From positions 744,001-808,000 of the forward strand of contig NEEC01000019.1 of assembly GCA_002189035.1 (NCBI GenBank): a stretch of DNA of 64,000 nucleotides, read 5' to 3'. Positions 9,688-60,285 of this stretch are shown here, one piece after another (the first letter of the stretch is position 1; each line of letters starts with the position of its first letter). The position numbers and the translations under genes are program-made. The notes beneath the pieces were generated by a model that saw only the letters and a program-made list of their open reading frames with translations, made no database searches and had not been told where the DNA came from. This stretch comes from Utricularia gibba. Its lineage: Eukaryota > Streptophyta > Magnoliopsida > Lamiales > Lentibulariaceae.

Positions 9688-12480
9688 TCAACTCCGGTAA
9701 CTTACATGTGTGATACACAATGCACGCAAGCTGCTACGAGATAATGCTAAAGTTTTGACCTTTGTTGTGATTATGTTACGAGAAAAGGTATTGGGGCCGG
9801 CGTGCGGGGAAAAACTTTCATGGCGATGGACCCGAGGAGGACGAAGTGGTCGCCGGGAAAGCAGACGGAGATGAGCGAAGCGGTCAGGGCTGCCCCAAAT
9901 GCCTTCGACTGTGGTCCGGATCGGTATCCGGTACCCACTCCCTGAACCCGGTTTGAGTTAATTAATATTTTTTAATCATAAAATGATATTTTAAATCAAT
10001 TTTTCCAAAAAAAAAAAAGTGGGTTCCAGAGTACAAAGGAGCCCCCGTTGGCTGTTCTGCACCACCGAGACCCGATAGGGACATCACGTGCCACATTTCC
10101 ACGCCACCACTGCCCTCAATAATTACGAATGCAGTATTACATTATTTACTATTTTTTATTAGATTGGATCTAATATTTTTTTCATAAAAAAAGCTTCTTT
10201 AAGAATTTTCAATATTTTATATTTTAAATAAATTTAGATTCAACTTATTATAAAACATTCAATCCAAATTTATGGATTGAATACATTTTTGAAATAATTA
10301 TCTCAATATTGAATAATTTTTTGTATGTTGTTTAGTAGATGGGCTTTTCAAAATTGTATTTTGAGAGTAATGTTACTACAACAAATGATGCTTTCAGACA
10401 TAGTTTGCTTCCGACACAATATTTTTCAATTCGTAATGATTCATATTATCCACAGTGCATTATTTCGAGTCCAACGTATCGAGTCATGAAATGTCAATAA
10501 TACAATAAAACCTTAATGTTTGAAAGATAGTCCTATAATTAACCTTTTAGTTGAAGCATAAAGTGACCATGACACTCAAAATATTGCAATTCTTGACTCA
10601 GATCTTGTCATAAAGTTGACTTTAATTTCCAAAACATGCGAATATAGTAAAATAATGTAAAATTTTGGATTTTAAATAATCCTGTCCACTACTCCTAATG
10701 TGTTAGAATCCGAGGGACATCCTTAAAATAAGTGACGCCTTGTTCATTTTTTAAATCCTTGAAAAATTTAATAATCATCATGCTTTGTCTCTAATATCTA
10801 ATGTGATCCACTATTTTCATTTTATTATATAGATTGAGTTGCACGTGCGATTCGTAGCACATTAATTTGTCAAACATTAAGACCCCATTTGTTAATTTAG
10901 ACAGAAAATCATTGGCTTACAATTATTTAGTATATTCGATAAGTTTGACTAACAAATTTCCCATATTTGCTACATGAAAAATGAGAAGAAGTAAAAAAAA
11001 AAAAAAAAAAGATAACTCATATTTTTTGCATGTAACGTGAAAACCAAGAATTTAAATATGCGGATGAAGATTACTTATACCATTTTCATTAAACACTGAA
11101 GAATAATCGTATCAATTATCACAACTTTAGGAATTTATGCCGTGGAGTGCCCGAAACGTTGATGTACAAATTTCCTCTTATTCAACGAGGGCTCAAGGCT
11201 ACTACTTACTAGGCTAGGAAGGTACATACGGTCGGGTCGGGTCGGGTCAGGGGTATGGGGTTTGAGGGGGCGGGTCGGTGGTGGGAGGACTCATAAATTG
11301 GGTCGGGGCTGGGGTTGTTTGGGCACATAATTGGTTTCCATTCCTACTGGGTTTAATACCAATTAATGGACCGCACATGCAACCCCTCATAATTATGTCA
11401 AATTATTCACTTATTTATATTATTACAGAAAAATCTAGGACACGACTCCGACACCCCCAGCATTCCTCAGATTCCCCATTATTTCTTTTTTCTGTTATTT
11501 TTTTTCCTTGTACGTGCGGAAATGGATGCTCACGCATTTCCCCTAATCCACGTGGCGCAACCACATTTTCAATTCAAACCCCTTTTTTATATTATCCCCC
11601 AACACAACATAATAATAATAAACTGTATTTAGTTTCGTAATTTTTAATTATTCTTTTGAAATAAAGACATTATTTTATTGAATAAAAGTGGGGATAAGTG
11701 TAATGACTCAACATCTCATTATATGATATTTTCTACATTGGGTATTCATTACTCTATTTTATGCAAAATTAAATGATATATTCTTATATAAATTTTTATT
11801 CTATCTTCATTTATAATCGATGTAAAATTCACCTAAAATTATTCCATACTTTTTTGGGTCAAGCTCTTCCCCCTGAAATTTAGCATCCTCCTTAAAATTT
11901 GTCTAGTAATCTATTATACGTTGTGATTTGATTACGATTATGTAAATTCTAGTTTATAATCGAAGTGATATTCGTCTAAATTCATTCTATTCGTTTGGTG
12001 GGTCGGGTTCCTGGGTCCCTTTTGGAAAATCAGCATCTTGTTAAGATTTACCTCACAATCTATTGGACTATGATAGTGAGACTTAAGAGAGTTTTTAGGT
12101 AGGTAAAATTCAGGCATTTAATTTAGGGTTTTCTTTTAGGTCGAGAACCACATTAAATGATGTAATAAAAAATAAATGGATCAACTGCGGGAAATTAAAT
12201 TAGGTGGGGCTTATGGAGTGATTTGACTGGCTGCTTTTTTTTTTTTTTTTTTTTTTGTTGAGGAGGGCAGCTCACTCGCTAGTGGAGCGCGTGAAATGGG
12301 CGGGGGCATTTTCCAGCGATGCTCCAATAATGAGCTCGCCCTAATTCCTAACGTAACTCCGAAGCAGGATCCGAACCAAGGCCCTCCTTCGCCGTTGAGC
12401 TTTAACTTTTCCCCCTTTTAACAAAACCCGAGCCTGCTTTTTCGTTTTACTTTCCCAACTTCCATTCCACTCCACTGAAT
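9688..12480. other. Intergenic region with a GC-rich patch and low-complexity runs
   Basis: The PPR 3' UTR comes first. A GC-rich patch at about 9781-9950 stands out from its AT-rich surroundings but holds only short frames on either strand. Poly-A runs lie near 10008 and 10995. A GGGTC-rich repeat sits at 11231-11290, of the kind seen in hAT subterminal regions. A run of about 20 T lies at 12236-12256 just upstream of the kinase gene. No gene is supported. Confidence 0.5.
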
Positions 12481-12513
12481 ATGGCCGCCGCTGCTTCTGC
12501 TCTGGGGAGATGA
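12481..12513 (+). promoter_or_regulatory. Upstream ORF whose stop overlaps the kinase start codon (ATGA)
   Basis: An ATG at 12481 in strong context (ATGGCC) opens a 10-codon frame reading [10 protein letters not shown]. Its TGA at 12511-12513 overlaps the ATG at 12510 of the receptor-like kinase frame. If transcribed, it could control re-initiation. The downstream in-frame ATG at 12549 is an alternative main start. Confidence 0.5.
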
Positions 12514-14714
12514 CGGTTGTCTGCTCCGATTCGTCAATGCCAGCGGCGATGCGGCTGTGTCTTGTTTTCTTTTTACTGTTGCTGGTGCTGGATCGGGCGG
12601 CGCCGGAGCCGACGTCGGATAAGCAGGCGCTACTCTCGTTTATATCGCAGGTTCCGCACGAGACTCGGATTAACTGGAATGCCTCGACATCGGCCTGTAC
12701 GTGGATCGGAATTGGTTGTGACCGGACGAATTCGTCTGTGTTCTACGTACGACTCCCCGGGGTCGGGCTAATTGGTGCGATTCCGCCGGATACGCTGGGG
12801 AGATTGAGTCAGTTACGCGTACTCAGTCTGCATTCTAACCGTTTGTCGGGTGAAATTCCGGCGGATTTTTCACGGCTCACGTTCCTGAGAAATGTTTATC
12901 TGCAGAATAATTTGTTTTCGGGTGGGTTTCCGGCGAGTTTTACCGAATTGACTCGGATCAGTAGGCTGGACCTGTCGTCCAACAACTTCACTGGCCCCAT
13001 TCCTTTCCCTCTGAACAATTTGACTCGTTTGACTGGGCTGTTTCTGCAGAACAATGGTTTTTCTGGTGCGATCCCGAGCATTGCGTTACCTGGGCTTCTT
13101 GGTTTCAATGTTTCGAGTAACCGTCTCAATGGATCGATACCTACGACGCTTGCGAGATTCCCGTCATCGTCGTTCTCGAATAATCTTGGATTGTGTGGGA
13201 GTCCTTTGCCTTCCTGCAACCCGTTTTTCCCGTCCCCAGCGCCTTCACCTGCATTTCCAGTACCATCCCCAAGAAGCAACAGAAGGATATCAACCGGCGC
13301 AATTATAGGGATTTGCGTCGCCGGGGGCGTTCTGATACTGTTGCTTCTGCTGGCGATCCTCTTTCTTCTCATCCGGAGGAGGAAAAAAGAGAGTGCTAAA
13401 GAGAAAAAGGTACCGGCAACCGCGGCAGCAAGCGCGCCGGGTGAAGCGGGCACTTCATCGTCGAAGGATGAAGTGGCCGGAGGATCGGCGGATGCGGCTG
13501 AGAAGAACAAGCTCATTTTCCTTGGAAACCGTGGAATGAGCTTCGATTTGGAGGATTTGTTGAGAGCTTCCGCGGAAGTGCTGGGAAAAGGAAGTATGGG
13601 GACCAGCTACAAGGCGGTTCTGGAGGAAGGAACAACTGTAGTGGTGAAGAGGCTCAAGGATGTTGGGGTTGGGAGAAAAGATTTTGAGCAGCAAATGGAG
13701 CAGCTTGGGAAAATTCAGCATCAACATCTGCTGCCTTTGAGAGCATACTACTACTCTAAGGATGAGAAATTGCTAGTCTTTGATTACATGCCTGCAGGGA
13801 GTTTATCTTCCCTTCTTCACGGTAAATCCCCTGCTTTTTACCTGAACCATGTATGATATGTTGCCTTGACATGTTAGGAATAAATTGTGTTGGTTTCTTT
13901 TTTGTTTAACGTCCTTGATCCTTGCAATGCTTGTTTGCTTTCATGCTCTCTGCAGTTATAGAAACATTGATTCTCCTTGGATTTTATGTCTACCCCTTAT
14001 TTTGTTCTCATGGCGAGTTTCGGGTGCATTCCTGTGTTTTCAGGCAGCCGAGGCTCCGGACGCAGCCCACTGGAGTGGGAAAGCAGATTGAGGATAGCAC
14101 AGAGTGCTGCAAGAGGGCTTGCACATCTTCATGTCGTTTCTAAATTAGTCCATGGAAACATCAAAGCCTCCAACATCCTTCTAAAGCAAGACAATGCCGA
14201 TGCCTGTGTCTCCGACTTCGGCCTCAACCCACTCTTCCTCCAATCCACCCCTCTGAATCACCGTGTCATGGGTTACCGAGCTCCTGAAGTGGTCGAAACC
14301 CGGAAGGTCACCTTCAAATCTGACGTCTACAGCTTCGGGGTCCTGATACTCGAACTCCTGACCGGTAAAGCCCCCAATCAGGCCTCTCTGGGTGAGGAAG
14401 GGATCGACTTGCCGAGATGGGTGCAGAGTGTGGTCAGGGAAGAATGGACTGCGGAAGTGTTCGATGTGGAGCTGATGCGCCACCACAACGTGGAAGAAGA
14501 GATGGTGCAGCTTCTCCAAATCGGCATGACCTGTGTGGCCATTGTGCCCGATCAGAGGCCAGACATGCCCCAGGTGGCCAGGATGATCGAGGAAATAAAC
14601 CGGGGCGAAACCGATGATGGCCTGCGCCAGTCATCCGACGACGCCACGAGAGGAGGAGGATCCGGCAGCCAGACGTCTCCCGCCAGAGCTTCCCCTCCCG
14701 GCCTCACTCCCTGA
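12510..14714 (+). CDS. LRR receptor-like kinase of subfamily III, probable pseudokinase
   Basis: This is a plasma-membrane receptor-like protein. Two exons (12510-13821, 14044-14714) give 660 aa. The intron sits inside the kinase domain, as is typical for LRR III genes such as At2g26730. Order: signal peptide (from M14, [15 protein letters not shown]), LRR N-cap with the CTWIGIGC pair, about five LRRs, a Pro/Ser-rich juxtamembrane stretch, a membrane helix at about 263-288, then a basic stop-transfer stretch. The kinase keeps the glycine loop (GKGSMG, from 359), the ATP-binding Lys380 and DFG (Asp495). The HRD motif reads HGN, with Asn476 in place of the catalytic Asp. Subfamily III members with this change act mainly as scaffolds. 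M14 at 12549 may be the true start because the signal peptide begins there. Confidence 0.92.
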
Positions 14715-20159: not shown

Positions 20160-23100
20160 ATGGCGTACGCCGCCGTGGTTACGCTATTGCAGGATCTCCA
20201 GGAAATTGTCGAGTTATCTACTCCGGATTCAGCCGTACGACTCCGATTTATTCAGGAAAAGCTTCGGTCGTTGCTAGATTTCCTCGAGGATTCCGTCTCA
20301 GTGACCGAGCGAATTAGAGCCGCCGTTGAGAAAAGAGATGTGGAGAGGGAGATTAGAGATCTGGTTTACCGACTGCAAGATGTATTCGACTTCTTCATTT
20401 CTCAGAAGGAAGAAGATCCAGATGGATGCGAATCACCTTCGTATTTGAATCGAATGGAGCAGATTTTGAACCATCAACTTCCCTCTCTTGAGAAGAGGAT
20501 TTCGCAATTGCAGCAGGAAATCCCGAAGGGTCAGACGGTGCCGCCATTGCAGCAGGAGCCAATTTCCTATCGAGACGGGTCATTGGATGGGAAAAAGCTG
20601 ATCGGATTGGAAAAGGGATTGGATGAACTCCAGAAAAGGCTTTTTGGGCAAGTAAAGGAGCGAGAAATCATTGCTATTGTAGGGATGGGAGGATCGGGAA
20701 AGACAACCCTGGCAACGAGGTTGTACAAAGGTGGGCAAATGAGCAATCACTTTGACAGTGCTGCTTGGATAACAGTATCCCAGGAGTACGATAAGCGAGA
20801 AATCATGCTGCGAATGCTTGAATCCATGGAAATTCTTACTCCGGAAATGCGAGAAGAAGACGACATACGTTTGAACGAACATTTGTACAAACACCTACGA
20901 ACTAGGAGACACTTCATTGTTATGGATGATGTTTGGAGCAAAGATGCTTTTGATGATGTCAAAAATATGCTTCCCGATGACAGGTACAATAGAAGCAGAG
21001 TCTTGATAACCACACGGTTAATGGAGGTGGCCGGATATGCCACTTTGGGAAAGGGCTACTGCCATCAGATGAGGCTGTTGAATGAAGATGAGAGTTGGGA
21101 GCTCTTGTGCACAAGGACTTTCGAGGAGGAAGGAGGGTGCCCTGATCTCCTGGTGGAAACCGGTAAGAAGATTGCCTTTAGCTGCAAAGGACTTCCTCTT
21201 GCTATCGAAGTGATGTCTGGGTATCTCCGGAACAAAGGTAGAGAAAAGCTCATTTGGGAGGAAGTTGCCACCAAAATCAACAAGGACTTGAGCACAAACG
21301 GATTGATGAGGGAGATGGTACGCTTAAGCTATGGTGAATTACCTAACTTCCTGAAACATTGCTTCCTCTACTTCAGCATGTTTGCTGAGGATGAAAAACG
21401 CAATGCTTCCGATCTGGTCAAAATCTGGGAGGCGGAAGGATTTTTAATATCTTTGAGCTGGCTGAGTCCAGAGGAGTTTACCGTAGCATGTTTACAAGCG
21501 CTGAGTTATCGACATCTCGTGACTGCTGAGTATAAATGTGGAAGGATGGAGAGATGCAGCATCCACGATGTTCTGAGGGATCTGTGCTTGGAAATTGCCA
21601 AAGAGGAACAGTTTGCTGCAGCTCTACTCACCCATTCAGATGTGGGACAAAATGACATCAAACAACTCCGCAGGTTAGCTATTCATGGCGATCTTAGCAA
21701 AATGAGAAGCATGATACCACCTGAGGATCTTGTGCTTCTCCGTTCTTTTCGATGCAAAAAACAGCTGACTGAAGATGATCCATCCTCCTATTTGAACTCC
21801 TGCCATCTTCTCAGAGTGGTGGAGTTGCCGACACTGAATTTCTTTGGACATCGGATCGACATGCTGAAGCTTTCCCATTTGCGCTATCTCTCTGCGCCTG
21901 TTAAAAAATGGGTTATACCAGAGCATTTTGCTGATTATTTCTGGAACTTACAATCCTTGATCATGCGTGGGGCTACCGTTGCAGGCACCCAAGTGTTGTG
22001 GAAAATGCCAAGCTTGAGGCACATCTGTTTCGGTTCATCCGACATGAAATGCCCTGAAGATAAGGAGTTGAAGCTACCAAATCTTGAAACACTTCTATAC
22101 ATTAAAGCCTCCAATTGCTCCTCCGAGTTGTTCTCAAGAACTCCAAATCTCGTTAGACTGGGAGTCAAGATGGAAGAGCTGGGCTACAAACCCCTTGAAG
22201 AACAATGGAGTGCATTTTCTGTTGAGAATATCAGCAATTTCCCGAAACTCGAAATCCTCAGACTCAAGCGGCAGGATATTTTGACGTCTGGAGTTCCAAA
22301 TAGTTTCACCCTTCCGGACAGCCTTAAAAGGGTGACACTGAGTGATACTAGGCTCCCATGGGAATCACTCTCTGTCGTTGGGAGGCTGCCTAAACTCGAG
22401 CAGCTGAAACTCTTCCGTGATGCATGTATTGGTGGCACTTGGGTGACCAACGACGAGGAGTTTCAGCTGTTGAAGGTTTTGATTATCAATGGCTCAAATT
22501 TGCGATACTGGGAAACCAGTAGCGATCATTTTCCCCAACTGGTGCATCTAGTTCTATGGGATTGCGTCCTGCTCGAAGAAGTCCCCACTTGTTTCGAAGA
22601 AATCCCTACACTTAGATTCATCCAACTGGATGGTGCTAGTCCTTCCGCCGCAAGAAGGGCCCAGGAACAAGTAGAGAGATTCAGAGACAGTGGAATCCAG
22701 ATTGCTGTGGACGGAGGCAGGGCGGCTTTGCCACTTGAAAGACAAGTATTTGTTTTCTTTCACCCTAATCTCTGTCATATCTGATTGGGAGGAAGTTCTA
22801 GTTTTTTTTCCCCATGCTGCAGGTGAGCTCCCTCATGACGATGCTGGAGGATCTCAAGCTCAGATATGGATTGGGTTTTTCACTGTGCCTCCTGCTCCTC
22901 ACTTCCCCTGCAGTGATCATGGTACATGTAACAGAGTACCTGGTGAGAGCCGCCGCCATGACTCCTCATCTCAAGTTATCTGTAAACCATTATCCATTTA
23001 ACTATGGGTTTCATGATGTAGGTGAGGTCCTTGATGGCAGCGTTGAAGGACATCAGGATTAAAATTGCACTGGGTTTTGTTTGGGGGATGCTGCTGATCC

Positions 23101-23285
23101 CAATATTTAATCTGCTGGTGGAGATTTTGGTGCACGCGCCGGAGTACCTGCTGAGCTGGTGGCGCCCGGCATCATCAACATCAGCAGGGTTCCAGGCCAT
23201 CCTCACCGGGCTCAAGGTACTACTCTGGTTGAATTTGGTAGCGATGATCTACATCAGAATGCTCATTCGCCCTTCCTTCCTTTGA
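20160..23285 (+). CDS. CC-NB-LRR resistance protein with C-terminal duplicated transmembrane exons
   Basis: This is an intracellular immune receptor of the R1/RPP13-like kind. Exon 1 (20160-22745, 862 codons) holds the whole canonical NLR. It has a coiled coil at about 1-130 with a weak EDVID-like stretch (LVYRLQDVFDFF), a P-loop GMGGSGKTT (175-183), kinase-2 FIVMDDVW (252-259), VLITTR, GLPL at about 344, and an MHD position that reads IHD (468-470). The LRRs run from about 540 to 850. Two more exons follow in phase 0 after tiny introns of 77 and 79 nt: exon 2 (22823-22942, 40 codons) and exon 3 (23022-23285). They encode hydrophobic helices at roughly 877-898, 917-939 and 961-984. Exons 2 and 3 are visibly related to each other. 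Total 989 aa. If intron 1 is kept, the protein ends 12 codons later at 22784 without the tail. The NLR core is certain; joining of the tail is inferred from phase, splice signals and continuity. Confidence 0.85.
22823..23170 (+). repeat. Tandemly duplicated membrane-helix exon in the NLR gene
   Basis: Exon 2 and the first half of exon 3 share a pattern: V-x-SLM-x-x-L-x-D, four residues, then x-LGF, a run of Leu/Ile/Val, then VH-x-x-EYL. Both start with GTGAG-C/G-TCC directly after AG. Copy 1 ends with EYL at a GTGAGA donor. In copy 2 the matching site reads CTGAGC, so the exon reads through. This fits duplication of an exon followed by loss of a donor. Confidence 0.75.
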
Positions 23286-24131
23286 CAGCAAATATGTGAA
23301 ACACAACCAAAATCTAATGAGAAAATTGTAAGAATAACATTTCAAGTTTTAATTAATACAAAGAGTTTAATTTTAAGTTTTAAAATTGTAGAAGGAAAAT
23401 ATTTTAAGCTAGCAAAACTGTTCAATGATGAATCAATCGATTTTTAAATTTTTAAAAAATTAACTGGTTTACATCATGGTAAACCAACTCTGATTTCAAA
23501 CATAATAAAATTTTATGGTAAAGTTTTTTACCTTCAAGTTTTGATGAATAGAATGATATACTTAATAAAGTTAAATCACATTTATATCTTGTATGATTCT
23601 AAGTGATAATAATTATATCATATTTATGTTTCATATGATTTAAAATGATAATGATTATATTGGATCTCGTATGATATATTATTATGATGATGTTAAGGTT
23701 GACACCTATTAATTTTGATATTATGAAATATTAAATATATAATTTTATAAATTTTAAAATAAACTATTTATAGAAAAACAATTTGATGTAATTATAACGT
23801 AATTTCGAAACTTAAAAATTAAGCTCTTTATATTGTTTGTGAATTGAAGTTGATAAAATTCAATATAATTATCATGACACCAAAATTTATTATCTCATGA
23901 ATTTATTAATGCTTTTTAATTAAAACAAAATTCTTGTAAAGGTGCTGATGGAGGGAGAGGTCACGTGCGTGCGTGCGCCTATCCGAGGGGTGCATCTGGG
24001 CCCCATCTTATTCCCCTCTCCGTCATCCTCCTCAACGGCGGCCACTCCGCAACGGATAAAACAAAATTGACGGAGCGGACAAGTATATTTCGGTTCTCAA
24101 GTGGGAGGAGTAGTTTCACGATTTCGTGGAG
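23286..24131. other. Intergenic AT-rich DNA
   Basis: The NLR 3' UTR and a highly AT-rich spacer. The last ~190 bases become GC-richer and are the promoter and leader of the acyl-activating enzyme, with a CACGTG motif near 23962. No gene is seen. Confidence 0.55.
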
Positions 24132-37316: not shown

Positions 37317-38552
37317 TCAACCTTCACGGGAAATGATGTAACCAAGGTATTCCACATGGCTAACGCCAAAGAAACACTTAGACATCTTGGCATATAAGGA
37401 GTAATGTTGTAGTATAGAGAGTAAAATGATGAGATAATGAAGATGATCTATCCAAGTTTTACTATAGACCAAAATATCATCAAAAAAAAGTAAAACATAT
37501 TTACGGATCACAGTGAAAAAAACCGAATTCATTAAAGATTGAAATGTTGAGGGAGCATTAGTCAACCCAAATGGCATAACCAAAAATTCATAATGTCCTA
37601 AATGGGTAGAAAAACTAGTTTTGTAAATATCTTCACTCTTCATCCTAATTTGAAAGTAGCCAGAAAGTAAATCAAGTTTTGAAAAAAACTGAACACCATG
37701 AAGTTCATCTAATAAATCATCAATTAGGGGAATGGGGAAAGGATGCTTTAAAGAGTTATCATTTAAAAAACGAAAATCAATGCATATTCTCCATCCTCCA
37801 TCTTTTTTTGGAACCAATAATATAGGGGAGGAAAAAGGGCTTTTACTTGGACGAATGAGTCCGGAAGCGAGTAATTCATCAATGATTTTCTCCACCTCAT
37901 GTTTTAGATGATGTGGAATGAAGGGGGGGGGGGGGGGGTAGCGTTTTGGGGTGACACCGGACGCTAGTGCGATCTCATGCTCAATCTCCCTATGTCGCGG
38001 AAGTTCCTTTGGTTCCTGAAATACACTAGAATATTCATTGAGCAAGGCAGCAATCTGAGGAGGAGACACCTGGGTGTCGTGTGCCAGCGGAGAAGTCATT
38101 AAGGCATAGAGGTGGCCCAACAAACATATGGGTGTTGGAGATCATGTGGGGACACTTTAGATCCCGCAATGAGTGAAATGGGGGCGGTGGAGCCCAGGCA
38201 TGGAAAGGTGACCGTTTGCCCGTCCTTAGTGATAGAAAAAGTCATCGTCTTATATTTTGTCGGAGAAAGGATCATGTTCACTGAGAAAGCTGCCCCCGAG
38301 CACCATATCGTAATTTTTTTTAAAATCAAAGCTCCTGAAATCAAAACAGAATTCATGGGCTCTCATTTTCCAACAAAAATTTTTTGTTACCTGCTGGTTT
38401 ACGAAACGCTGTCCACCCGGCTCGGTTTCTAGAATTGGCTGAGTGGGCACTAATGGAAGAGATAATTTTTTGACCAAGCTTATATAAAGGAAACTGCTAG
38501 TTATGCTAGGGTCAAATAGAACTCTCAATTCTTGTTTTTGGTGAGATCCCAA
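37317..38552 (-). pseudogene. Retrotransposon pol: protease remnant and reverse transcriptase, broken
   Basis: The RT segment (38123-37317) is open for 268 codons. It shows KSPFSSPILLVPKKDGGWR, FSKLDLLSGYFQIRM, FLVMPFGLTNAPSTFQ and the catalytic FFDDILVYS, the usual gypsy order, and stops after LGYIISREG. Upstream, overlapping frames 38552-38250 and 38356-38099 carry a degenerate retropepsin-like region, so a frameshift is present. A run of 16 G at 37923-37938 (Pro codons on the minus strand) precedes the RT core and is a likely slippage site. Confidence 0.85.
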
Positions 38553-38800: not shown

Positions 38801-41780
38801 TAGGAATGGGCAAAAAATCCGACCTGTTGGATACCAATCTCAACCCAACCCGTGAGGGTCGGATTTTTAATGGATAAGGGGTAGATATGGATTTTAAAAT
38901 TTTAAATCCACCTTATAAAAATCCATCCCCGCCCCACATACCCAATTCATATGTTTTTTTTAAAAAATAATATAATAAATTTATATGAATTGAAGAGGGC
39001 ATGACAGAACGTCTGAACAATTTTATTAAATATTCATATTTTTTCTATTTGTTTCCCTTCTACTTTCCCTTTCACTTTAGGTTTCAGTTTTTTTCTGTAA
39101 AAGGGGGACGATGTTCTACAAAAGAAGCTAAGTTGGAGGGAGCTTGTGATACAAATTAGTAGGTTAAGGATTATGGAGATTGGAGAACTTGGCTATCACA
39201 AACATCTTTCACGGTGTGTATTATCTTCCTTTTAAAATTTCTCACCTCCTTAGATGTTTATTGCTTGCGAATGGGGTTTTGAAGGCTACAATAATAATGC
39301 TTCTTGCATGCTCTTTGGTGGGATAGGTCATTAAATTCATCCATTAAAAGACCCAAATTTATAATCAATGGCATATGGAATGAGCTTCTATTTCATGGTT
39401 CACGTTTCTTTATATTCTTGTATTAATTTGATATTTTTTTTCAAATCAAAGAAAGTGAGATTTCTTTTTTCAATCTTCTCATGCTCATTGTGTTGCTTTT
39501 ACTTTCACTTTCAGAGGCATGGCTTCAAATGAAGAAAATTCTATCTTTAGTCCAGATATTCAGTGCTCTAAAAATATAACAAAATCTGGTACTCCTTCAA
39601 CAAATAATCAAGAGGTAAAGCAGCATGATGGATATGATCATTCTAAATTGACATCTGAGGTTTGGCAGCATTTCAAAAAGGCACAAATTGATGAAAAGTG
39701 GAAGGCAATATGCAATTATTGTTCATCAGCACTTATTTTAGAACCAAAAAGTGGAACTTCACACTTGAAGCAACATTCTCAAAAGTGTAAAAAGCAATTA
39801 ATCCAAAGTTTGTGAGAAGTTGAGAATATTTCATGAGACTACAAAATTATTTTCAGGTATATCTTGTTAACTTTATTTTTTTTAATTTTATATGCTCATG
39901 ATTTTTAGATTTGACATTTAATAAATTTTTGTAGGGACATGTTATCCTACTGCAAATTTATTTTTTCCTCAATTATGTGAAATCAGATTGGTCTTAAACG
40001 AATGGATTAATGATCCAGATGAGTTGACACGGGATATGACAAGTAAGATGTTTGATAAGTTTATGAAATATTGGAATATGATTCATGGAATTATGGGAGT
40101 TGCTTGCTTGTTGGATCCTAGACATAAATCGTATCTTTTAGAATTTATTATGAGAAGTTTTATGGTTGGGAGAGTAGTACTCATGTTGAGAAAATTGTGA
40201 ATATTTGCTTGAGAATTTTGTTGGAGTATCAAAGACAAAAGGAAAGTACAAAGAACAATTTTTCATCAACTGAAGGATCTAGTTTTAGTGTTGGTTCATA
40301 TATGCAATCTTATGCTGATTTTGTTAGTTCTAAAAAGAGCAACAAGTCTAACTTCAAGTCAGAGCTAGATTACTACTTGAATGATGATGTTCTGCCGCTA
40401 TCTGAAAATTTTGCTATATTGGATTGGTGGAAAACAAATGGAGTGAAATATCCAACTCTCCAAAAAATTGCAAGAGATATATTAGCTATCCCTATTACGT
40501 TAGTGGCTTCTGAATCAGTTTTTAGCATAGGAGGCCGGATCATTAATCCACATCGAAGTAGATTACATTCATCTCTGGTTGAGGCTTTGGTTTGTTTAAG
40601 AAACTGGATATCCAATGAAAAAGGTAATACACTATTTATTATATGTTTTATTTATTTTATTTTATTTATTATTGAATAATTACGATTGAATCACTTAATT
40701 TTAGGATTTATGACTGCATTAACTCCATTTGTAACATTTTTGGAAGATGAGGAGGGAGAGGAAGAGACCTTAGAGTCTGAAGAAGAAGATCAAGAAATGT
40801 AGAACTTTTTTATATTAAGTGTAGACCTTGTTGTTATCGGTGTTCTTGTTGTTGTTTCTGTGGTGGGATTGCTGCTATTGTTGCTCGTGGAGTTGGTGGT
40901 AGCCACTCTCTGGCTTTATGGTTCTAAAACCAATAGAAGACTTTCTTGCCCTTGATCTTCCCAAAGGGGCAGAGCTATGCAGTGATATGCTGGATTTGTT
41001 TTATGATTTATTTTATTTATATGCATGTGATGGTGGGATTTACTTGTGTTTAATAGTACATTTTTCAACCAACACCTATCGGGGGTGGCTGATGGTGGAT
41101 GTTAAGTTTAATGTGAAGGAATTAAAGGTGACTTTGTAAATGTTCGGATATTCATGTGTTTCTTCTCAAGTTTCTTAACCATAACTGTTTACTCAATTCA
41201 AAAGAAATTCTAAAAATGGATTGTTTGAAACTCTTGTGATTTCTTTGTTTAATACCTGATTGTGAGGTTGCATCATGTCTTGATCCCTCAGTAAGCAATT
41301 ACTTACAATTGCTCGTGTCAAAACATGGTGCTTTGTGACCCATTGTTGTTGGATTTGTCAGATGGTGAGCTCAGAACAATGTTGGCCATTGTGTCCATCA
41401 TGTTGGATGGTGGTGGTTAGGGTCCCGGTAGATTGCACCATGAGTGATGATTAATTTTTCAATAGAAATTTTTGGTATGTTAATTATTAACTCATGCATG
41501 ATTTTGAAGAGGAACAGGCACATGAAAGATAAAACTTTTGATTTGTCAAGTTAATAATAGTTATATTGTATTGTAAAATTGCTTATTTACAATTTTGTTT
41601 CAATAGAATAATTAATGTGATGGATAATCATAATGGATGGATTACCCGATGGGACGGATTTGAATTTAAAAAGTAAAACCCATTGGAGGGGAGGGTTGGG
41701 TTTGGATTTGTTTTTAATAAAGATGAGGTGGGTGCGGGTTTGATAAAACCCGCCCCAAACCTGCCCCATGCCCATCCCTA
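38801..41780 (+). mobile_element. hAT transposon, internally deleted, with 8-bp target duplication
   Basis: Terminal repeats read TAGGAATGGGCA on the left and, complementary, TAGGGATGGGCA on the right. They are flanked by the 8-bp duplications GTCGGGGA (38793-38800) and GTTGGGGA (41781-41788), which differ at one base. The subterminal DNA is rich in CCCG/CGGG words. The element sits in the gag gene of the retrotransposon. Confidence 0.88.
39519..40802 (+). pseudogene. hAT transposase with deleted catalytic middle
   Basis: The N-terminal BED zinc finger is intact: SEVWQHFKKAQ, then a CNYC pair and a HLKQHSQKC end. The C-terminal half follows after ~170 bp: DPRHKSYLLEF, then the dimerisation domain with LDWWKTNGVKYPTLQKIAR, SVFSIGGRIINPHRSRL and an acidic tail ending at TAG 40800-40802. 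The several hundred residues normally in between are gone, and frame changes occur near 39815 and 40190. It is non-functional. Confidence 0.85.
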
Positions 41781-46314: not shown

Positions 46315-48183
46315 CTACTCAGCAGAGAACTCAAACAACATGCTGTGCTTGTACTTCTCACCGGGACGAACAACGATCGACGGGAAGTTCGCCTGGTTGA
46401 TGGCATTGGGGAAGCCCTGAGTCTCAAGGCAACACGCGGAATGCTTCTCATAGACAGCGCCATCTTTCCCAACAATTCCATTCACATAGTTTGCAGTGTA
46501 AAACTGCATTCCGGGAGCAGTTGTCCACAGATCCAAGGTTCTGGAGCTGGCAGGATCCCTCAGTTTTGCCGCATACTTCAGGCCTGATTTTTCCACACCG
46601 CTGTCAAGAACATAGTTGTGATCGTAGCCTATACCCACCTCATGGACACGGCTGCCGATTGTGGCCTCGTTAGTGAAGTCAAATGGGGTGCCTTTAACCG
46701 GCAAGATTTCGCCGGTAGGGATGAGGTTTTCATCCACCGGAGTGATGTGGTCGCTGAATATCTGGATGGTGTGATCAAGGATTCTTCCAGAACTGTGGCC
46801 GGCTAAGTTCCAGTATGTATGTTGGGCTAAGCTGATTGGAGTTGGCTTGCTTCCAGGCACACCTTCCATGTCCAGCCTCAGTGTGGTACTGGAAATGAGT
46901 GTATAGGTTGCAGTGAAGGAAACGTCTCCTGGATAGCCTGCAATAGTAACAGCAGGAAGGAGTTTTGGTATGTAAAAACAATATCACTTTCGATTCCCTA
47001 AAATTCAGGGTGACCTTCTTCTCCATCATGGCTATGGTACTTGAATGTAATAGAAGGATGGTCGCCTTGCTTGTATTCAGCAACCTCCCAGGTGACTTTG
47101 TCATATCCCTTGTGCCCACCTTCAAATGTAATTGTTCAGTACATTACAGCAAATGAAAGGACATGCTGCCATTCTCCTCACACTTCCAGAATCATGCTTA
47201 ACGCAATGAAAGCAGGAAACCATTTACTGTTACAATGATGCCCATATATATGTTGCCACAACCATTTCCATAATGAAAAGCAAGTGACAGAGAACTGTGT
47301 GCAGGGGATTCCATCTTCATAACACAGAAAACATCTCCAACTCCCCACTTTTCACAGATAACACAAAGCTTGTAGAGCCAAAAAAATGAGAAAAAAGCGC
47401 ACGTTCAAGGCATTGGAGTCAAATCTAAATCAATGTTTCGAAAAATTTTTGAAAACTGTTTTTACTTTTCAAAATTATTTTAAAAAAAGTAAAAATAACT
47501 AACTTCATACTTTTTAAAAATAACTTTTATAGTATAATTTTAAAATTATTTTTAATAGAATTACTTTTATAATTAAAAATATTCTAAAACAAAACTATCT
47601 TACTTTTCAAAAATAGAAATAAATTTTAAAAATTTTCCAAAACACTACTTCATCAAATCCATCAGCATATATAGGATTCAAACAAAGAATGGTACCATGG
47701 AGACTATTAGGTGGCTTGTTAAGAGGCAAAGAATGTTCCATTCCATCTAGCGTAAACTTCCCATCTTTGATTCTGTTTGCCACCCGACCCACAATGCACC
47801 CAAAATAAGGTGCTTCACCTTTCTGGGCAGAACCAATCCAACTCAAATATGAGAACAGAACAAGGGGCATAAACAGTTCATTTCTACCACCAGATCCGTA
47901 TCAAAGGCAAGCGTTTGCACGAATAAAAGACAAGATCCCAATGCCACTGACCTGGTAAGGCTCTAGTGAGTCGAATCCAAGAACAACATCGGATAAATTT
48001 CCTGCAATTATGATCAGATTATAAAAATTTCTGACGATCAAGGAGTATGAGAAATCAGATTCAGGGGTATGGAATATTACCTTGTTTGTCGGGCACAAGC
48101 AAGGAGGTGATCGTGCAACCAAAGTTTGATACTTTGACTTGCATGGTACCATTGTTTAGTTCAAAGAGCTTCGCTTCCGCCAT
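46315..48183 (-). CDS. Aldose 1-epimerase (galactose mutarotase)
   Basis: This enzyme interconverts alpha and beta anomers of hexoses such as glucose and galactose. Five exons on the minus strand (48183-48081, 48001-47952, 47822-47696, 47119-47015, 46937-46315) sum to 1008 nt, giving 335 aa, the plant family length. The N-terminus is MAEAKLFELNNGTMQVKV with no targeting signal, so cytosolic. Seen: FGCIVGRVANRI, NSLHGGHKGYDKVTW, the catalytic His region AQHTYWNLAGH, VGIGYDHNYV, and the catalytic Glu in CLETQGFPNAINQ. It is divergent from OEP64, with 384 bp between the two start codons. Confidence 0.95.
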
Positions 48184-52087: not shown

Positions 52088-53231
52088 GTTGTTAGGAGGC
52101 TCCTTCGACAGCTTGCCTCCTAAACTCTAGCCTATGGAAACAGACAAAAACAGCCGCTCCTTTTGAGCAAGAGTTGCAGGAAGCAAGGAACCATTGCGAT
52201 TTTGGCCTTTAAATTTCACTGTTCTTTCGTGACAAGAATGAATTTTTTGTTCCACATCTTCTTATTCACTTCTCGGAATGCTTATAAACATTGTCTTCAA
52301 CATTCCCTCAAAAGATGTTTTTGATATGAACCATTACAAGAATGTGTGTGAGGCAAAGCCACAATGCTGATATTCCTGATCCAGATATCCACAGGTATTC
52401 TAAGTTGGGTATAACATTTCTACTACAGAAATGTACACACATGAACTATGCTGTAACATAACAGTACCATATGAAAAGTACAGAGGCACATAGGAGCGAA
52501 CAGAGCCATATTTAGTGGAATCTTTGACACAATTTCACTAGAGTGGCCCTTGCCCTTCACATGGCTCGCCTAGCTGGTTTTTTGACGGCTTCCCACAGGG
52601 AGCTGCTCAGTTTTTTAAGAGAAGGAAACGACACTGCCCCACACCACACAAAGGCCGTTTCTATTCTAGGAGCCAAGCAGAGATTTTTTAATTCTGATAT
52701 GTTGTTTTATGACCCAACTGGCTAAAAGCTCGCGCAAGGATGAAGCTACAACACAGACATGATTAAGGCAGCTGGATGGATGTTCAGTTCATTTTGAGTT
52801 ACAGAGTTACCGTGGAGGGTGGGGAGAAATGGAGACAAAAGGAGATGAAAAACTTGGAATATAAAGAGCAGCAGACTGGGAGTCTGAATGATATTCCCAT
52901 CTTGTGCTGTGTGACAGGAAAAGTAGTGCATGTGATTTATCATGAATTTCAGGTCATTTTGTTTGCTTCCAAGATGATTCACCCTGCTGCTTGGTAAAGC
53001 TAAAATTACTGCTCTGCAACTCCCCAAGTGTGTGTGTTTCTGAAGTAAGTTGTGAAAATCACAGGGGTGAAACTCTGCAAGTCCTTTTTTTTTTCTCTTT
53101 TAGTGTGGAAAAGATTAGGGGCGTGGCAAACTCCTTTATGTACCACTCCGATCCTGGGCTCCGGTGCGACTTCATCATTCCTAGCGAAACTCTCACCTGA
53201 GATAAGTGCCGCCGCCGCCGCCGCCGCCGCC
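52088..53231. other. Spacer between OEP64 and GPI-anchored protein gene
   Basis: The OEP64 3' UTR, then unassigned DNA with only short frames. A GCC trinucleotide repeat directly precedes the next ATG (53208-53231). Confidence 0.5.
53208..53231 (+). repeat. (GCC)8 repeat abutting a start codon
   Basis: Eight GCC units run straight into ATGCCC. In frame they would encode an alanine run if translation began at the upstream ATG at 53052. Confidence 0.85.
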
Positions 53232-54297
53232 ATGCCCAATTTCATCTTCATTTTGTTCTTCTCCTCCTCCTGCATTCTCCCTTCTATTCTCGCAATTCCC
53301 GATCATCCGGAACAAGGCCTTGCCGCGGTCCAAACCCAGACTCTCCGCCGTCCCCTTCCGGATATCACAATCCCAGCCTTCCCGGAGCAATCCTACGCCT
53401 CTATATGCCCATTGAACCTCCCCGATGGCTTCTTCCACAGCGTCAAATCAGCCTGCGTCTCACATCCCTTTTCCTCGGACCACCGGTCCCGCTGCTGCCC
53501 GGCACTTGCCGCCTGGATCTACTCTGGCTACTCAGACACCGCGCTGCGGGTCTCTGCCGCCGCCGCGAAGACCCATCAAACCGCGGCTTTCGAAATGCCC
53601 GTGCTCCCCGATGATTCGGAGACCTGCGTGGATACGCTGGAGAGAGCGTTGGGTACCAAGGGGATTCAGTTGCGGCGGCCGAACGCTACGTGCGACGTCG
53701 TTTATTGCTACTGCGGTATCAGATTGCACACTTTCAGCTGCCCGGAGGCGTTTAGGGTTAACCCCGATGGCCAATTAGAGGCAGGGGAATCCGTAAGGAA
53801 GCTGGAAACTGCATGCTCCGGCGGCGGTGGAGTCGCCGTATGCTCCAAATGCCTCCAGGCCCTGCATTCTGTAAGCACTTTTGGACATATTCATCCCAAG
53901 GCACCTCCAAATTCTACTTTTTCTTCATTCCAACGCTGCTCCGGCTAACAGCGTCGTCCTGATGCAGCTGAACGAGGAGAAAAGCGGAAGAAACAGCAAC
54001 AGAACAAGCAAGATGCACGGCCGGGACTGTGAGCTCATGGGACTGACATGGCTCCTGAACAAAAACAGCTCTGCCTACATCCACACCGCCACTGCCGTTC
54101 TGAGACAGATGATGAATGGCAACGAAACTTCACCCCAGAGTTGCAGTCCGCGTAACCAAGGCATGCCCGTCGCCGTCGATTCATCGGAAATCCACGGCCA
54201 AGCTCCGTCCTCATCCCAATTCCTGCATTCCTTCATCCTCCAGATGATCTCCTTCATCTTCTTCCATGCCTTCGTTATGTCTTCTTTGCTTACTTAA
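53232..54297 (+). CDS. GPI-anchored extracellular protein (At4g28100-like)
   Basis: This is a putative cell-surface protein of unknown role. Two exons (53232-53870, 53968-54297) give 322 aa. There is a signal peptide (MPNFIFILFFSSSCILPSILA). A Cys-rich ectodomain follows with CPLNLPDGFF, SRCCPALAAWIYSGY, VYCYCGIRLHTFSCPEAF and CSKCLQAL. This order matches the plant family annotated as uncharacterised GPI-anchored protein At4g28100. Exon 2 carries MHGRDCELMGLTWLLNKN. A Ser-rich linker and a hydrophobic C-terminal tail (FILQMISFIFFHAFVMSSLL) fit GPI addition. The frame is open upstream to an ATG at 53052, but starting there would bury the signal peptide, so 53232 is preferred. Confidence 0.88.
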
Positions 54298-56083: not shown

Positions 56084-58548
56084 TTCTGCCGTAATCTTAC
56101 ACGCAGAGGCGAGGACGAGCGCATTTTCGTTTTATAGGGGGGAGCCCGGCGCCGGAGCCGGTGATGTGACGCCACGTGGCATGATTCTATTCGAACTATT
56201 TAACTTTTAATATTACATAATATATTTCAAAATTTTATTACATGCTTTATAGAGTGAGAATAGTGCAAAATATAATTATCATTATGTCTTATTAAATTTT
56301 CATAATATAGTACAAAAAATGTGCTATTTATTTTGTAAATACTAATCAAGCCTTAATGACACAACTGCATCATTAATGGCCAATAACTGACACGTATGAC
56401 CCAAGCAAGCCCAGAGTCAATAAGACACCAATTAGCACAATTAAAACCGCGTAGAAGATTTGTGTTCACATGAAGGATTCAAAGATTTATTGACCAACTG
56501 TTTTCAGACTCTGATTTCATTATTCCAACACTAAAAAGGCCATAGAGAAAGAAAACTTCCATGAGAAGAAAAGAGAAAGACAATTTGAGGAGTAGAATTG
56601 AATCTAATTTTATTGTTACTGTTTCGAATCGGAAATAGTAATTGATGAAGAACATGACTATAACTTTAATTTCTTTATATATTTTGAATATTTACTATTT
56701 TTTATTTAATTTCAAACATGGTTGTGAATATTTATCCAATTTCATATATGATGATGTTGGGAAATGATGAAATGTATCATATTCATATTATTTATGAATT
56801 TAATGTAATATGGTTGAGAATTTATCCCATTCATAGAAAATCTATAAAATTACGTTAAAAATGCCAATGTTAATATTTTGTTAAAATTAATTCATACTTT
56901 TTTATAAATTATATACAAAATCGATCCTCACCACTTACTGTATCAGATATAATTAATTGCTAAAATTTAGAGTATCGTCATAATTAATCTATGAATTTTT
57001 ATATTTTAAATATTTTACTACTTGAACACTAGACATACTATTCAATAAAGTAGTCATGATTAGTTGAAGATTAATTTGTAAAAATTGTAACCAATTGTCG
57101 ACTATAATTATTTCAAATAATGGAAATTTATTATTCTAAAATAATAGATACTTGATTCTTTGTGACTACTGTTTTAAATTGTCAAAAATAACCGTTAATT
57201 GCTTGTACAAATGGTTTGCAGTTTGAAAGGTTAAATATTAGTTTAAAATATGATTGAATCGTTAATTTTTTTTTAAAAAAAAACTGATTTTAAATATTTT
57301 GCTTATGAAAAATATCCAATCATAATTAAATCGTAGTTGAACTACGATCGAATCGTAATTATATCATGATTTTTTTTCTATTTTAAAGTGGTATGAATTT
57401 AACCCAGCCGCATTGATAAATAATTCATGGTTCAAACAGTTCAATGTGATTGACCCATGGTTTTTTAAAACAAAATTTTTTACCAATTTTTATGAATAAT
57501 GGTGATCAATTTTATCATTATTTGAAAAATAGGAGGATTAATTATTTCAATTTTTTAAATATTGGAGATAGCAGTAAAAATGTAAAAAATATTTTTTTAT
57601 AAATTTCATAAACAATGAAAATGAGGCTTTTGTTATATTTAAAAAACAAGGTGAATGCCCAAATATAAAAAAACCAATGGCTACATGTTGCTGGTGGATA
57701 AAGGTTATCAACTAAGGATCATGGTGCAGAATGGGACACGTCACTACCACCCATAATATATTTATTTTATGGGACCTAATTTTACTAATTTGGATCTAAA
57801 ATTGGGAGTTGATCAAAACATTCAGGTTTAGATTGGTAGGGAGTTGAATTTACTCAATACAAATACAGGTGGGAGTTTTTTTTTAATATCACAAATATAG
57901 ATGTATTTAATTTACACCAAAATAAGAAATTCAGAAAAAATTGAATGTATTCATAGAAATTTTTATACAGTAAAAATTATTAATTATGATAGGTTTGAAT
58001 TTTGATAAGAATTTTATAATTATATTAATAAATATTACCAAAGTATTCATTATTAAATAAATGTTGAATTTCTAACCTCAAAAAAGCTAAACTCATAACA
58101 ATAGTAAAACGTTAAAGATAGATAAATTATATATTAATAGAATCATAAATAAAATAAATTGATAATTGGCTAAAAATTATTTGAAAGGTAATATTATTTT
58201 TTTATATAATTAATTAAATTCAACTAAACATAAAGTTATGTTTTATTATGAATTATGTAGTAAAGAATAAAAATTATCTGAATAATGAATACAAAAAATA
58301 TTAAATATTATTTTTTTGTCTATAATATAAAAACCTTTTCAAATGTGGAAACACAAGTTGATAACCCTAGATTTGAATGGGAGACCTCTTCCTATTTTCG
58401 AAAGTTCAGATTTTGATTTGCAAAATGTAGGATTCGATCGGCATAGGGAGTAGAACTTTATTCTTGATGATGATGCGAGGAGAGTTGGTTGAGTCAGGAG
58501 CTGCTGAGGGGTGCAGCGTGTGAATCCGGTGGTGAAACTCACTCGTTT
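56084..58548. other. Long AT-rich intergenic region
   Basis: The RCI2 promoter, then over 2 kb of AT-rich DNA without a reading frame above ~60 codons. Words such as AATCGTAATT recur around 57320-57370. The last ~200 bases are the PPR gene leader. Confidence 0.6.
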
Positions 58549-60285
58549 ATGAAGTCGCCGTTTCCGGTGAAACCTGCAGCTACAGTTTCTGGAATTTCAT
58601 TTTTTTCTTCAGCGCAATTCTGTGAGCTTCTCAGTACCGCTAATAGTTTGAAGCTTGCGGCACAGATTCATGCTCAGCTCGTCACCCGGAGCTATATTTG
58701 CTCCCCGATTTTGTTCAATAAACTCCTCGCCCTTTACTCAAAATGTGGCAAGATTTCGCACTCCATTTCTCTGTTTTCGGCTTCCAATTCAAGGACCCAG
58801 TTTGATAACACCAAGAATGTCTTCACGTATACCTCTATCATCACCCGCCTTTCTCACTGCAATTTACCGGCCAAAGCTCTGTCATTTTTCAATGAGATGA
58901 GGGAAAGGAATATTTATCCTAATCATTTTACATTCTCGGCCATTTTGCCAGCGTGTCGTGATTTGATTGCAGGTAAACAGATGCACTCCTTGATATGTAG
59001 GCATGGATTTTTACCCGATGTGTTTGTGAGTAGTGCGCTGGTAGACATGTATGCAAACTCTGGAGAAATAAACTGTGCGAGAAGGGTATTCGATGAAATG
59101 CCTGATAGAAATTTAGTTAGTTGGAACTCCATTATAGTTGGTTTTTTGCGGAATGGGTATTATCAAAGCTCGATTAGTTTTTTCTCTGGCCTTCTTGAGG
59201 ATGCCGGTGTTTCCCCTGATGAAGTGAGTTGCTCAAGTGTGCTCATAGCGTGTGCTAGTTTATGTGGGGTGACAATCGGGAGACAAGTGCATGGCATTGT
59301 GGTTAAGCATGGGCTCGAATTTTTGGCCTATGTGAAGAACTCTCTGATGGATATGTACTGCAAATGTGGTGTCCTTGATGATGCCAAATATTTGTTCAGG
59401 ACAATAGAGGACAGGGATGTGGTTACCTGGAACGTTATGGTGAAGGCTTTCGTTCAGAATGGTGAGTTTGAGGAAGCGTGCAATCAATTTTGGTTAATGA
59501 GACATGAAGGCGTATCCCCTGATGAGGTTTCCCTTTCAACCGCACTTCATGCTGCTGCAAATGCTGCAACACTAGGTCAGGGAAGCTTGATCCATGCACA
59601 CATAATTAAAGCTGGATTTGGATCCAATGCTCACGTTTCTAGCGCATTGATCTCAATGTATGCAAAATGTGGTAGTTTATTCGATGCAAGACAAGCATTT
59701 TCTGAATGCAAAGACCATAATGTGGTTACTTGGACAGCCATGATTTCTGCCTTGCAACAACATGGCTGCGGAAGGGAGGTGATAAAATCATTTGATGGCA
59801 TGCTTGCAATGGGTATAGAGCCTGATTACACAACATTCGTCTCTGTTTTATCCGCTTGTGCTCATACAGGACATGTTGATCATGGCTTCCATTACTTCAA
59901 CATGATGAGTAGCAGGTGCGAAATCAATCCCGGGCCTGAACACTACGCTTCCATGGTTGATTTGCTCGGCCGTGCTGGCCGTTTAGAAGATGCTAAAAAG
60001 TTTGTGGAAGAAATGCCAATTGAAGCCGATGCCTGTGTGTGGGGAGCCCTGCTTGCAGCCTGCAGAGAACATGGTGATCTTGACATGGCAAAACATGTAG
60101 CAGGGAAGCTTCTCCAAATCGAGCCGCGGAACCATGGAAACTATATGCTACTCTACGACATGTATGCTAGTGGAGCAAGACACCAAGAGGCCAACGAAGT
60201 TCGAAGAGCTATGGAATGCAACATGGCCAAGAAGGAGCCTGGATGCAGCTGGTTTGATATGAGGAACACAGCCCCATGTCCTTAA
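58549..60285 (+). CDS. PLS/E-class pentatricopeptide repeat protein
   Basis: PLS-class PPR proteins are organellar RNA-binding factors, mostly for C-to-U editing. Intronless, 578 aa. The start is the ATG at 58549 (MKSPFPVKP); the open frame extends upstream without an ATG. The N-terminus is Ser/Phe-rich, as in an organelle presequence. Repeats alternate P, L and S forms, for example SALVDMYANSGEI, VVTWNVMVKAF and SALISMYAKCGSL. The E region follows (YASMVDLLGRAGRLEDA, WGALLAACREHGD, NYMLLYDMYASG, then KKEPGCSWFDM). There is no DYW domain; the protein ends 9 residues after GCSWFDM. If it is an editing factor it would need a DYW partner in trans. Specific orthology is not claimed. Confidence 0.92.
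   Translation: MKSPFPVKPAATVSGISFFSSAQFCELLSTANSLKLAAQIHAQLVTRSYICSPILFNKLLALYSKCGKISHSISLFSASNSRTQFDNTKNVFTYTSIITRLSHCNLPAKALSFFNEMRERNIYPNHFTFSAILPACRDLIAGKQMHSLICRHGFLPDVFVSSALVDMYANSGEINCARRVFDEMPDRNLVSWNSIIVGFLRNGYYQSSISFFSGLLEDAGVSPDEVSCSSVLIACASLCGVTIGRQVHGIVVKHGLEFLAYVKNSLMDMYCKCGVLDDAKYLFRTIEDRDVVTWNVMVKAFVQNGEFEEACNQFWLMRHEGVSPDEVSLSTALHAAANAATLGQGSLIHAHIIKAGFGSNAHVSSALISMYAKCGSLFDARQAFSECKDHNVVTWTAMISALQQHGCGREVIKSFDGMLAMGIEPDYTTFVSVLSACAHTGHVDHGFHYFNMMSSRCEINPGPEHYASMVDLLGRAGRLEDAKKFVEEMPIEADACVWGALLAACREHGDLDMAKHVAGKLLQIEPRNHGNYMLLYDMYASGARHQEANEVRRAMECNMAKKEPGCSWFDMRNTAPCP

Follow-up and report, generated by a model that had tools for sequence, protein, structure and literature searches.

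With a probability of about 0.55 we consider the gene at positions 20160 to 23285 of the analyzed Utricularia gibba DNA to encode one 989-residue protein, in which a sensor CNL of the NRC superclade is joined to a lineage-specific polytopic membrane module derived from exon duplication. Most likely this C-terminal tail serves as an anchor or as a membrane bait, as judged from its predicted properties. The window, i.e., the whole stretch of 64,000 nucleotides under analysis, corresponds to C142:744001-808000 in a genome of 100,091,633 bases and 516 contigs, which was also searched.

Gene structure and receptor class

The preliminary description of this locus had claimed a complete CC-NB-LRR frame of 862 codons followed by two short in-phase exons after introns of 77 and 79 nt. 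This anatomy is confirmed in every coordinate. The frame runs from ATG 20160 to 22745 and contains a Pfam NB-ARC domain, both exon junctions are in phase 0, both introns are of the GT..AG type, and the spliced product has 989 amino acids, 862 from exon 1 and 127 from the tail. When intron 1 is retained, the unspliced frame reaches a stop after 12 codons (TGA 22782-22784). The features are as follows.

20160..22745, plus strand: exon 1, receptor of predicted CC-NB-ARC-LRR type, 862 codons, stop-free, ATG at 20160 (open reading frame and Pfam)
20160..20219, plus strand: N-terminal 20 codons, MAYAAVVTLLQDLQEIVELS, an Rx/R1/NRC0-S-like start, non-MADA by eye (alignment consensus)
20610..21296, plus strand: NB-ARC domain, P-loop GMGGSGKTT at codons 175-183 (Pfam, 39-sequence alignment)
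21378..21587, plus strand: winged-helix domain, IHD replacing MHD at codons 468-470 (Pfam, alignment)
21741..22718, plus strand: LRR region; NLR homology stops near codon 845-853 (Pfam, alignments)
22746..22822, plus strand: intron 1, 77 nt, GTATTT...TGCAG (sequence, codon-score search)
22814..22822, plus strand: alternative start ATG CTG CAG in the frame of exon 2, possible start of a separate small gene (sequence)
22823..22942, plus strand: exon 2, 40 codons, repeat unit 1 (frame, repeat alignment)
22868..22924, plus strand: hydrophobic segment 1, residues 878-896 (hydropathy scales)
22943..23021, plus strand: intron 2, 79 nt, GTGAGA...TGTAG (sequence, codon-score search)
23022..23285, plus strand: exon 3, 87 codons and TGA; its first 43 codons (23022-23150) form repeat unit 2
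23064..23120, plus strand: hydrophobic segment 2, residues 917-935 (hydropathy scales)
23199..23267, plus strand: hydrophobic segment 3, residues 962-984 (hydropathy scales)

Pfam recognized the NB-ARC domain (PF00931; 4.8e-55, 186.9 bits, cut-off 23.5) and, also over its cut-off, WH_DRP (2e-9). LRR_14 (29.0 of 40 bits), the R13L1 LRR (24.8 of 27 bits) and Rx_N (PF18052, 15.4 of 27.7 bits) stayed under their cut-offs, the Rx_N region being aligned by homologues that cover up to 98% of the query. A protein search in which 7999 candidates were scored gave 1328 homologues at E ≤0.001. The best 120 of these 1328 were used; they are 29-37% identical to the receptor and many are named R1A or R1B, the others RPP8, RPP13, in a few cases Rx/RGH, or are unnamed. 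We aligned 38 of these best 120 with the window protein. In the resulting 39-sequence alignment seven of the nine P-loop columns are invariant, and as in plant CNLs the NB-ARC domain with its P-loop and winged helix is followed by LRR sequence, to which the LRRs of NRC3 and NRC2 align as far as codons 842 and 845.

Among solved structures the closest relatives were NRC3 (352.7 bits) and NRC2 (343.8 bits, the match spanning codons 9-845), which head the PDB list with NRC4 and NRC1 next to them. RPP13-like protein 4, which we take to be ZAR1, reached 173.4 bits. This ranking and the homologues named R1 and Rx both point to the NRC superclade. The start of the protein, MAYAAVVTLLQDLQ, matches the consensus MAYAAxxSL of the 39-sequence alignment and, judged by eye and by this consensus, is of the non-MADA, MAYAA/MAHAA type. 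For NRC0-S proteins a consensus start MAHAAVVSLxQKLxx has been described, with the MADA motif in 0 of 23 of them (PMC11371149, in the part of the paper available). Since the MAYAA start is common across the whole homologue set, it supports the sensor type and not NRC0-S in particular.

The receptor resembles a sensor of the NRC superclade. With the NRC-dependent sensor CNLs of asterids (Rx, R1 and NRC0-S types) it shares the predicted CC-NB-ARC-LRR order, the P-loop, the start without evident MADA motif and the many R1A/R1B homologues; unlike them it carries a 127-residue tail with three hydrophobic segments. With the NRC helpers NRC2, NRC3 and NRC4 it shares its best solved-structure matches, but by eye it lacks a MADA-like N terminus, and it scores 353 bits at best to these helpers versus 487 and 569 bits for two helper-like loci of the same genome. 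These are L035 (487 bits to NRC2; the open frame just upstream reads MAVKIALTLFEEYLKQ) and L037 (an NB-LRR frame with 569 bits to NRC2a and MAEAAVSFLLENLKQ in the open frame just upstream). For L039 and L040 the open frames located directly before the NB-LRR frame contain MADAAVAFLLQQLKD and MAAEVATSFLLQNLKE, respectively. This putative sensor type, which had escaped the preliminary description, is relevant since sensors of this kind rely on separate helper NLRs for signalling.

Searching the genome for NB-ARC sequences gave 45 matches, exons and fragments counted; NB-ARC repertoires of the Lentibulariaceae have been described as reduced (PMC9579050, in excerpt). Identical match scores were seen for NLRs on contigs C414, C415 and C422 (L007/L008; L025/L026; C414:3412830 and C422:54145), which would reflect recent duplication or else haplotypes left unmerged. 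In an NB-ARC tree of 144 out of 150 sequences, the short matches L025, L026, L027, P0006, P0088 and P0114 having been dropped, the window protein groups with the Olea proteins P0008 and P0033 (support 0.859; next deeper node 0.214). Neither of these nearest relatives has such a tail.

Probable coding character of the tail

One unit is present in two diverged copies, as exon 2 and as the start of exon 3. A local protein alignment of exon 2 with the initial 43 codons of exon 3 scored 67, versus at most 50 after plain and 46 after class-preserving shuffling (2000 shuffles each), so that in neither set a single shuffle (0/2000) reached the observed value. Aligned by codons, the two units share 17 of 40 residues and, on the DNA level, 73 of 120 bases, and the NG86 estimates are 0.43 for dN and 1.11 for dS (dN/dS about 0.39). 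The similarity resides in the proposed frame, with a score of 67 for the same forward frame and no more than 46 for the reverse frames. When exon 2 was allowed to diverge neutrally to equal identity, the repeat score was reached in 185 of 3000 runs and a stop was gained in 2230 of 3000. This internal duplication supports the tail as coding more strongly than the preliminary description could have known.

Two candidates for a further copy of the unit were rejected. Alignments of intron 2 as a decayed third unit were matched by 256 (exon 2) and 553 (exon 3) of 1000 shuffles, and when the second half of exon 3 was taken as such a unit, 714 and 820 of 1000 shuffles were equally good. On the DNA level the repeat between the two units (22915-22947 and 23123-23155, 73% over 33 nt) extends 5 nt into intron 2, so that the donor of intron 2 corresponds to coding sequence of unit 2. 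The exon starts at 22823 and 23022 both read AG|GTGAG and resemble splice donors, so that dual use of these sites, recursive splicing or the skipping of exons would be conceivable.

The base composition changes sharply at the stop codon of the tail: the GC content of the tail exons is 0.51 and 0.52 versus 0.20 over the 655 bases past the stop, and the third-position GC of these exons is 0.65 and 0.68 versus 0.17-0.22 at the three positions downstream. For a codon score, the training set consisted of seven open frames from the window, exon 1 included, and of noncoding stretches including 23300-23930. With this score exons 2 and 3 each reach 8.9, inside the range of exon-1 chunks (means of 6.4 for 40 and 13.7 for 88 codons) and above all sampled noncoding chunks (maxima of 0.2 and -12.0, respectively). 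On the minus strand one reverse frame per tail exon is positive (4.8 for exon 2, 6.4 for exon 3). The minus-strand open reading frame 22976-23248 was rejected as the coding sequence, having a somewhat weaker codon score (6.4 versus 8.9 for exon 3) and the weaker repeat (at most 46 versus 67).

We then searched for chains of at most two GT-AG introns of 60-150 nt which maximize the codon score. The optimum consists of exactly the two proposed introns, with a log-likelihood ratio (LLR) of 23.5 over 129 codons. Chains of the same kind that lengthen the frame by 129 codons or more arose in 6 of 400 dinucleotide shuffles, and in 3 of 400 when a pyrimidine filter was applied. From random positions of the window, genes included, 42 of 400 matched both score and length of the tail chain. 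Of eight other NLR ends in the genome, that of L038 has a 133-codon chain scoring 20.3 versus 23.5 for the tail, that of L041 reaches 38.8 because the rest of its LRR runs on in another frame, and the remaining six score 2.4-14.4. A chain comparable in codon score to that of the tail is present behind one of the seven usable ends, that of L038. A splice chain in perfect phase is by itself weak evidence for real exons. Scanning 22500-23400 for promoters and terminators relied on a bacterial consensus and is of no relevance here.

The repeat, the GC pattern and the codon-score optimum together favour real coding exons. We regard it as probable from these sequence properties that the predicted tail belongs to the NLR protein.

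Predicted membrane character and distribution of the tail

The claim that the added residues, some 127, contain three hydrophobic segments proved right on both hydropathy scales. The 19-residue Kyte-Doolittle means peak at 2.11, 2.28 and 1.98 for segments 1 to 3, and on the Wimley-White octanol scale the segments reach +9.0, +12.9 and +10.0 kcal/mol, with +4.1 kcal/mol at most within exon 1. Peaks over 1.6 on the Kyte-Doolittle scale occur three times in the 127 residues of the tail and not once in the 862 residues of exon 1. With at least two segments favourable for membrane insertion by the octanol values, the tail is predicted to be polytopic.

Loop 1 contains four K/R residues and loop 2 one, and prolines are found inside hydrophobic segments 1 and 2. 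Three simple crossings with the N side cytosolic would leave the basic loop 1 outside, and its basicity fits poorly with a simple three-helix topology. The tail could form three transmembrane helices or, in view of these basic residues and prolines, two hairpin-like units plus a single transmembrane helix. As amphipathic helices the sequences ahead of segments 1 and 2 were nothing special, their moments ranking at percentiles 57 and 74 among exon-1 14-mers.

The three-segment C-terminal layout was absent from the related receptors examined. In the last 127 residues of the best 120 of 1328 homologues, 118 proteins have no hydrophobic peak, two have one and none has two or more. At least one such peak somewhere in the protein is present in 76 of these 120, so it is the position and number of the segments which are unusual and not hydrophobicity as such. 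That CNLs end after the LRR, as had been stated, holds largely for the close family, in which 31 of 38 aligned homologues have 0-24 residues past the column of codon 853; the other 7 of 38 carry other extensions of 38-262 residues, and the C-terminal extension of the homologue P0001 contains ARM repeats.

The tail itself matched no Pfam family. Relatives of the tail, which the preliminary description had proposed to seek among asterid NLR proteins, were not found at E ≤10 among database proteins of NLR size (274 candidates) or of about 126-399 amino acids (54 candidates), shared five-residue words being required in both cases. No second copy was found in the U. gibba genome by DNA or protein search, i.e., the tail is single-copy, and an origin in a transposon or duplicated gene of this genome was discarded. 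Nor is the tail common to the nearest relatives: the end of Olea P0033 is a single hydrophobic stretch without repeat, which may be an intron read into the gene model. Directly behind the LRR of L034, the nearest paralogue in the genome, open coding-like sequence with a hydrophobic stretch, MLAVILVLLTFLFSLHMM, is found (L034:3690-4060). A similar tail at this locus was rejected, since its best chain is not multi-segment hydrophobic. Six of the eight other NLR loci have at least one downstream open hydrophobic segment with a mean of at least 1.8, L038 and L041 having none. A land-plant NLR with a polytopic C-terminal tail was not found in the literature searched, which comprised the accessible parts of open-licence papers, and in the portions available the word "transmembrane" is absent from the main texts of RefPlantNLR (PMC8559963) and of Sarris 2016 (PMC4759884).

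RPM1, RPS5, flax L6 and TN13 are attached to membranes via the N terminus, namely by acylation, an N-terminal anchor or a partner. Like these the window receptor would be a membrane-attached immune receptor, but its predicted attachment is a polytopic C-terminal tail. RRS1 is, besides RGA5, an NLR-ID with a C-terminal integrated domain. To such C-terminal NLR-IDs the receptor is similar in having additional sequence past the LRR (RGA5; PMC4759884, in excerpt); unlike their recognized soluble decoy domain, the tail is hydrophobic and without a match in Pfam. For the green alga Chromochloris zofingiensis NLR-like proteins with predicted transmembrane helices have been described, one of them with a C-terminal Kidins220-type module (PMC7145615, in the sections available). 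The combination of NB/LRR and predicted transmembrane helices is similar; however, the algal lineage is distant, the module is another one and, as far as the same sections go, these cases are predictions only (PMC7145615).

If the gene model is right, the tail could also be chiefly an integrated bait copying a membrane protein attacked by effectors, rather than an anchor. C-terminal integrated domains do occur in NLRs and have been attributed to sensors (PMC8559963; PMC4759884, both in excerpt), and other homologues such as P0001 have C-terminal extensions as well. However, a source protein sharing the domain, as expected for an NLR-ID, was found neither in Pfam nor in the own genome nor in the database at the lengths searched. 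We regard this variant as unlikely, though the most probable of the alternatives.

Proposed role and alternative gene products

In the preferred reading, an anchored sensor, the tail would sit in the membrane and the CC-NB-ARC-LRR part would be cytosolic, held by a tether of about 25 residues past the last LRR. The anchored sensor could detect an effector at that membrane, and its NB-ARC part would turn on a separate NRC helper of the MADA type, whose pore would form at the plasma membrane. According to the available parts of the respective papers, NRC helpers oligomerise at the plasma membrane (PMC11524475) and the sensor Rx activates NRC2 (PMC11524475; PMC11371149). As a sensor is not expected to insert its N terminus itself, or to require it free for pore formation, C-terminal anchoring need not disturb signalling. 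As an NRC sensor the receptor would depend on a helper; helper-like genes are present in the same genome. For the question of where in the cell NRC sensors meet effectors and helpers, a C-terminally anchored sensor would offer a natural experiment on the need for sensor and helper to reside on the same membrane. If our reading is true, the C terminus of NLRs, mostly studied for soluble decoys, can gain membrane modules absent from domain libraries.

Since exons 1, 2 and 3 meet at phase 0, splicing can give three in-frame receptors. A soluble form would result when intron 1 is kept, a two-segment form when exon 2 is skipped and a three-segment form by full splicing, and, depending on whether the crossings are even or odd in number, the C terminus would end up on one or the other side of the membrane. 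The receptor might then be a switchable membrane-anchored NRC-type sensor and the plant would choose by splicing where one sensor guards; this we consider improbable, below the integrated bait in likelihood. The same junctions make the permanent placement on a membrane, as originally claimed, too strong a statement, because retention or skipping yields a soluble or two-segment form. Overall that interpretation is partly supported.

Ranked lower again, and doubtful, is the possibility of two genes, in which the NLR stops at 22784 and a separate small membrane protein starts from ATG 22814 (MLQVSSLM...) and uses intron 2. This ATG lies in frame 9 nt ahead of exon 2 within the listed open frame 22802-23062, and retention of intron 1 gives an NLR of 874 amino acids, a normal length as judged from the 31 of 38 homologues ending shortly past the column of codon 853. 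However, the gap between stop and ATG measures only 29 nt and leaves no space for a 3′ end and a promoter, unless these are inside the NLR exon. Moreover, intron 1 shares phase 0 with intron 2 and belongs to the chain with the optimal codon score, and the tail resembles nothing among database proteins of about 126-399 amino acids.

Least probable is a noncoding tail, i.e., a 3′ UTR that may include an intron (GTGAG 22823 to AG 23021) and whose frames and hydrophobicity arose by chance: open hydrophobic stretches are common behind other NLRs here (6 of 8 loci), exon 2 opens with the donor-like AG|GTGAG and comparable splice chains occur in 6 of 400 shuffles, but against this stand the protein-level repeat in the proposed frame, the third-position GC of 0.65-0.68, the exact coincidence with the codon-score optimum and the sharp GC collapse at the stop.

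The other genes of the window include ordinary plant neighbours, namely an LRR receptor kinase (12480-14711, plus strand), a cytochrome P450 (17051-18337, minus strand), an aldose epimerase (46318-46983, minus strand) and a PPR protein (58546-60282, plus strand). Transposon remains with a reverse transcriptase frame and a hAT dimerisation domain are located at 37320-38141 (minus strand) and 40128-40676 (plus strand). An open frame at 53160-53945 (plus strand) has a SPARK domain (7.7e-8), which is the ectodomain of some symbiosis receptor-like kinases.
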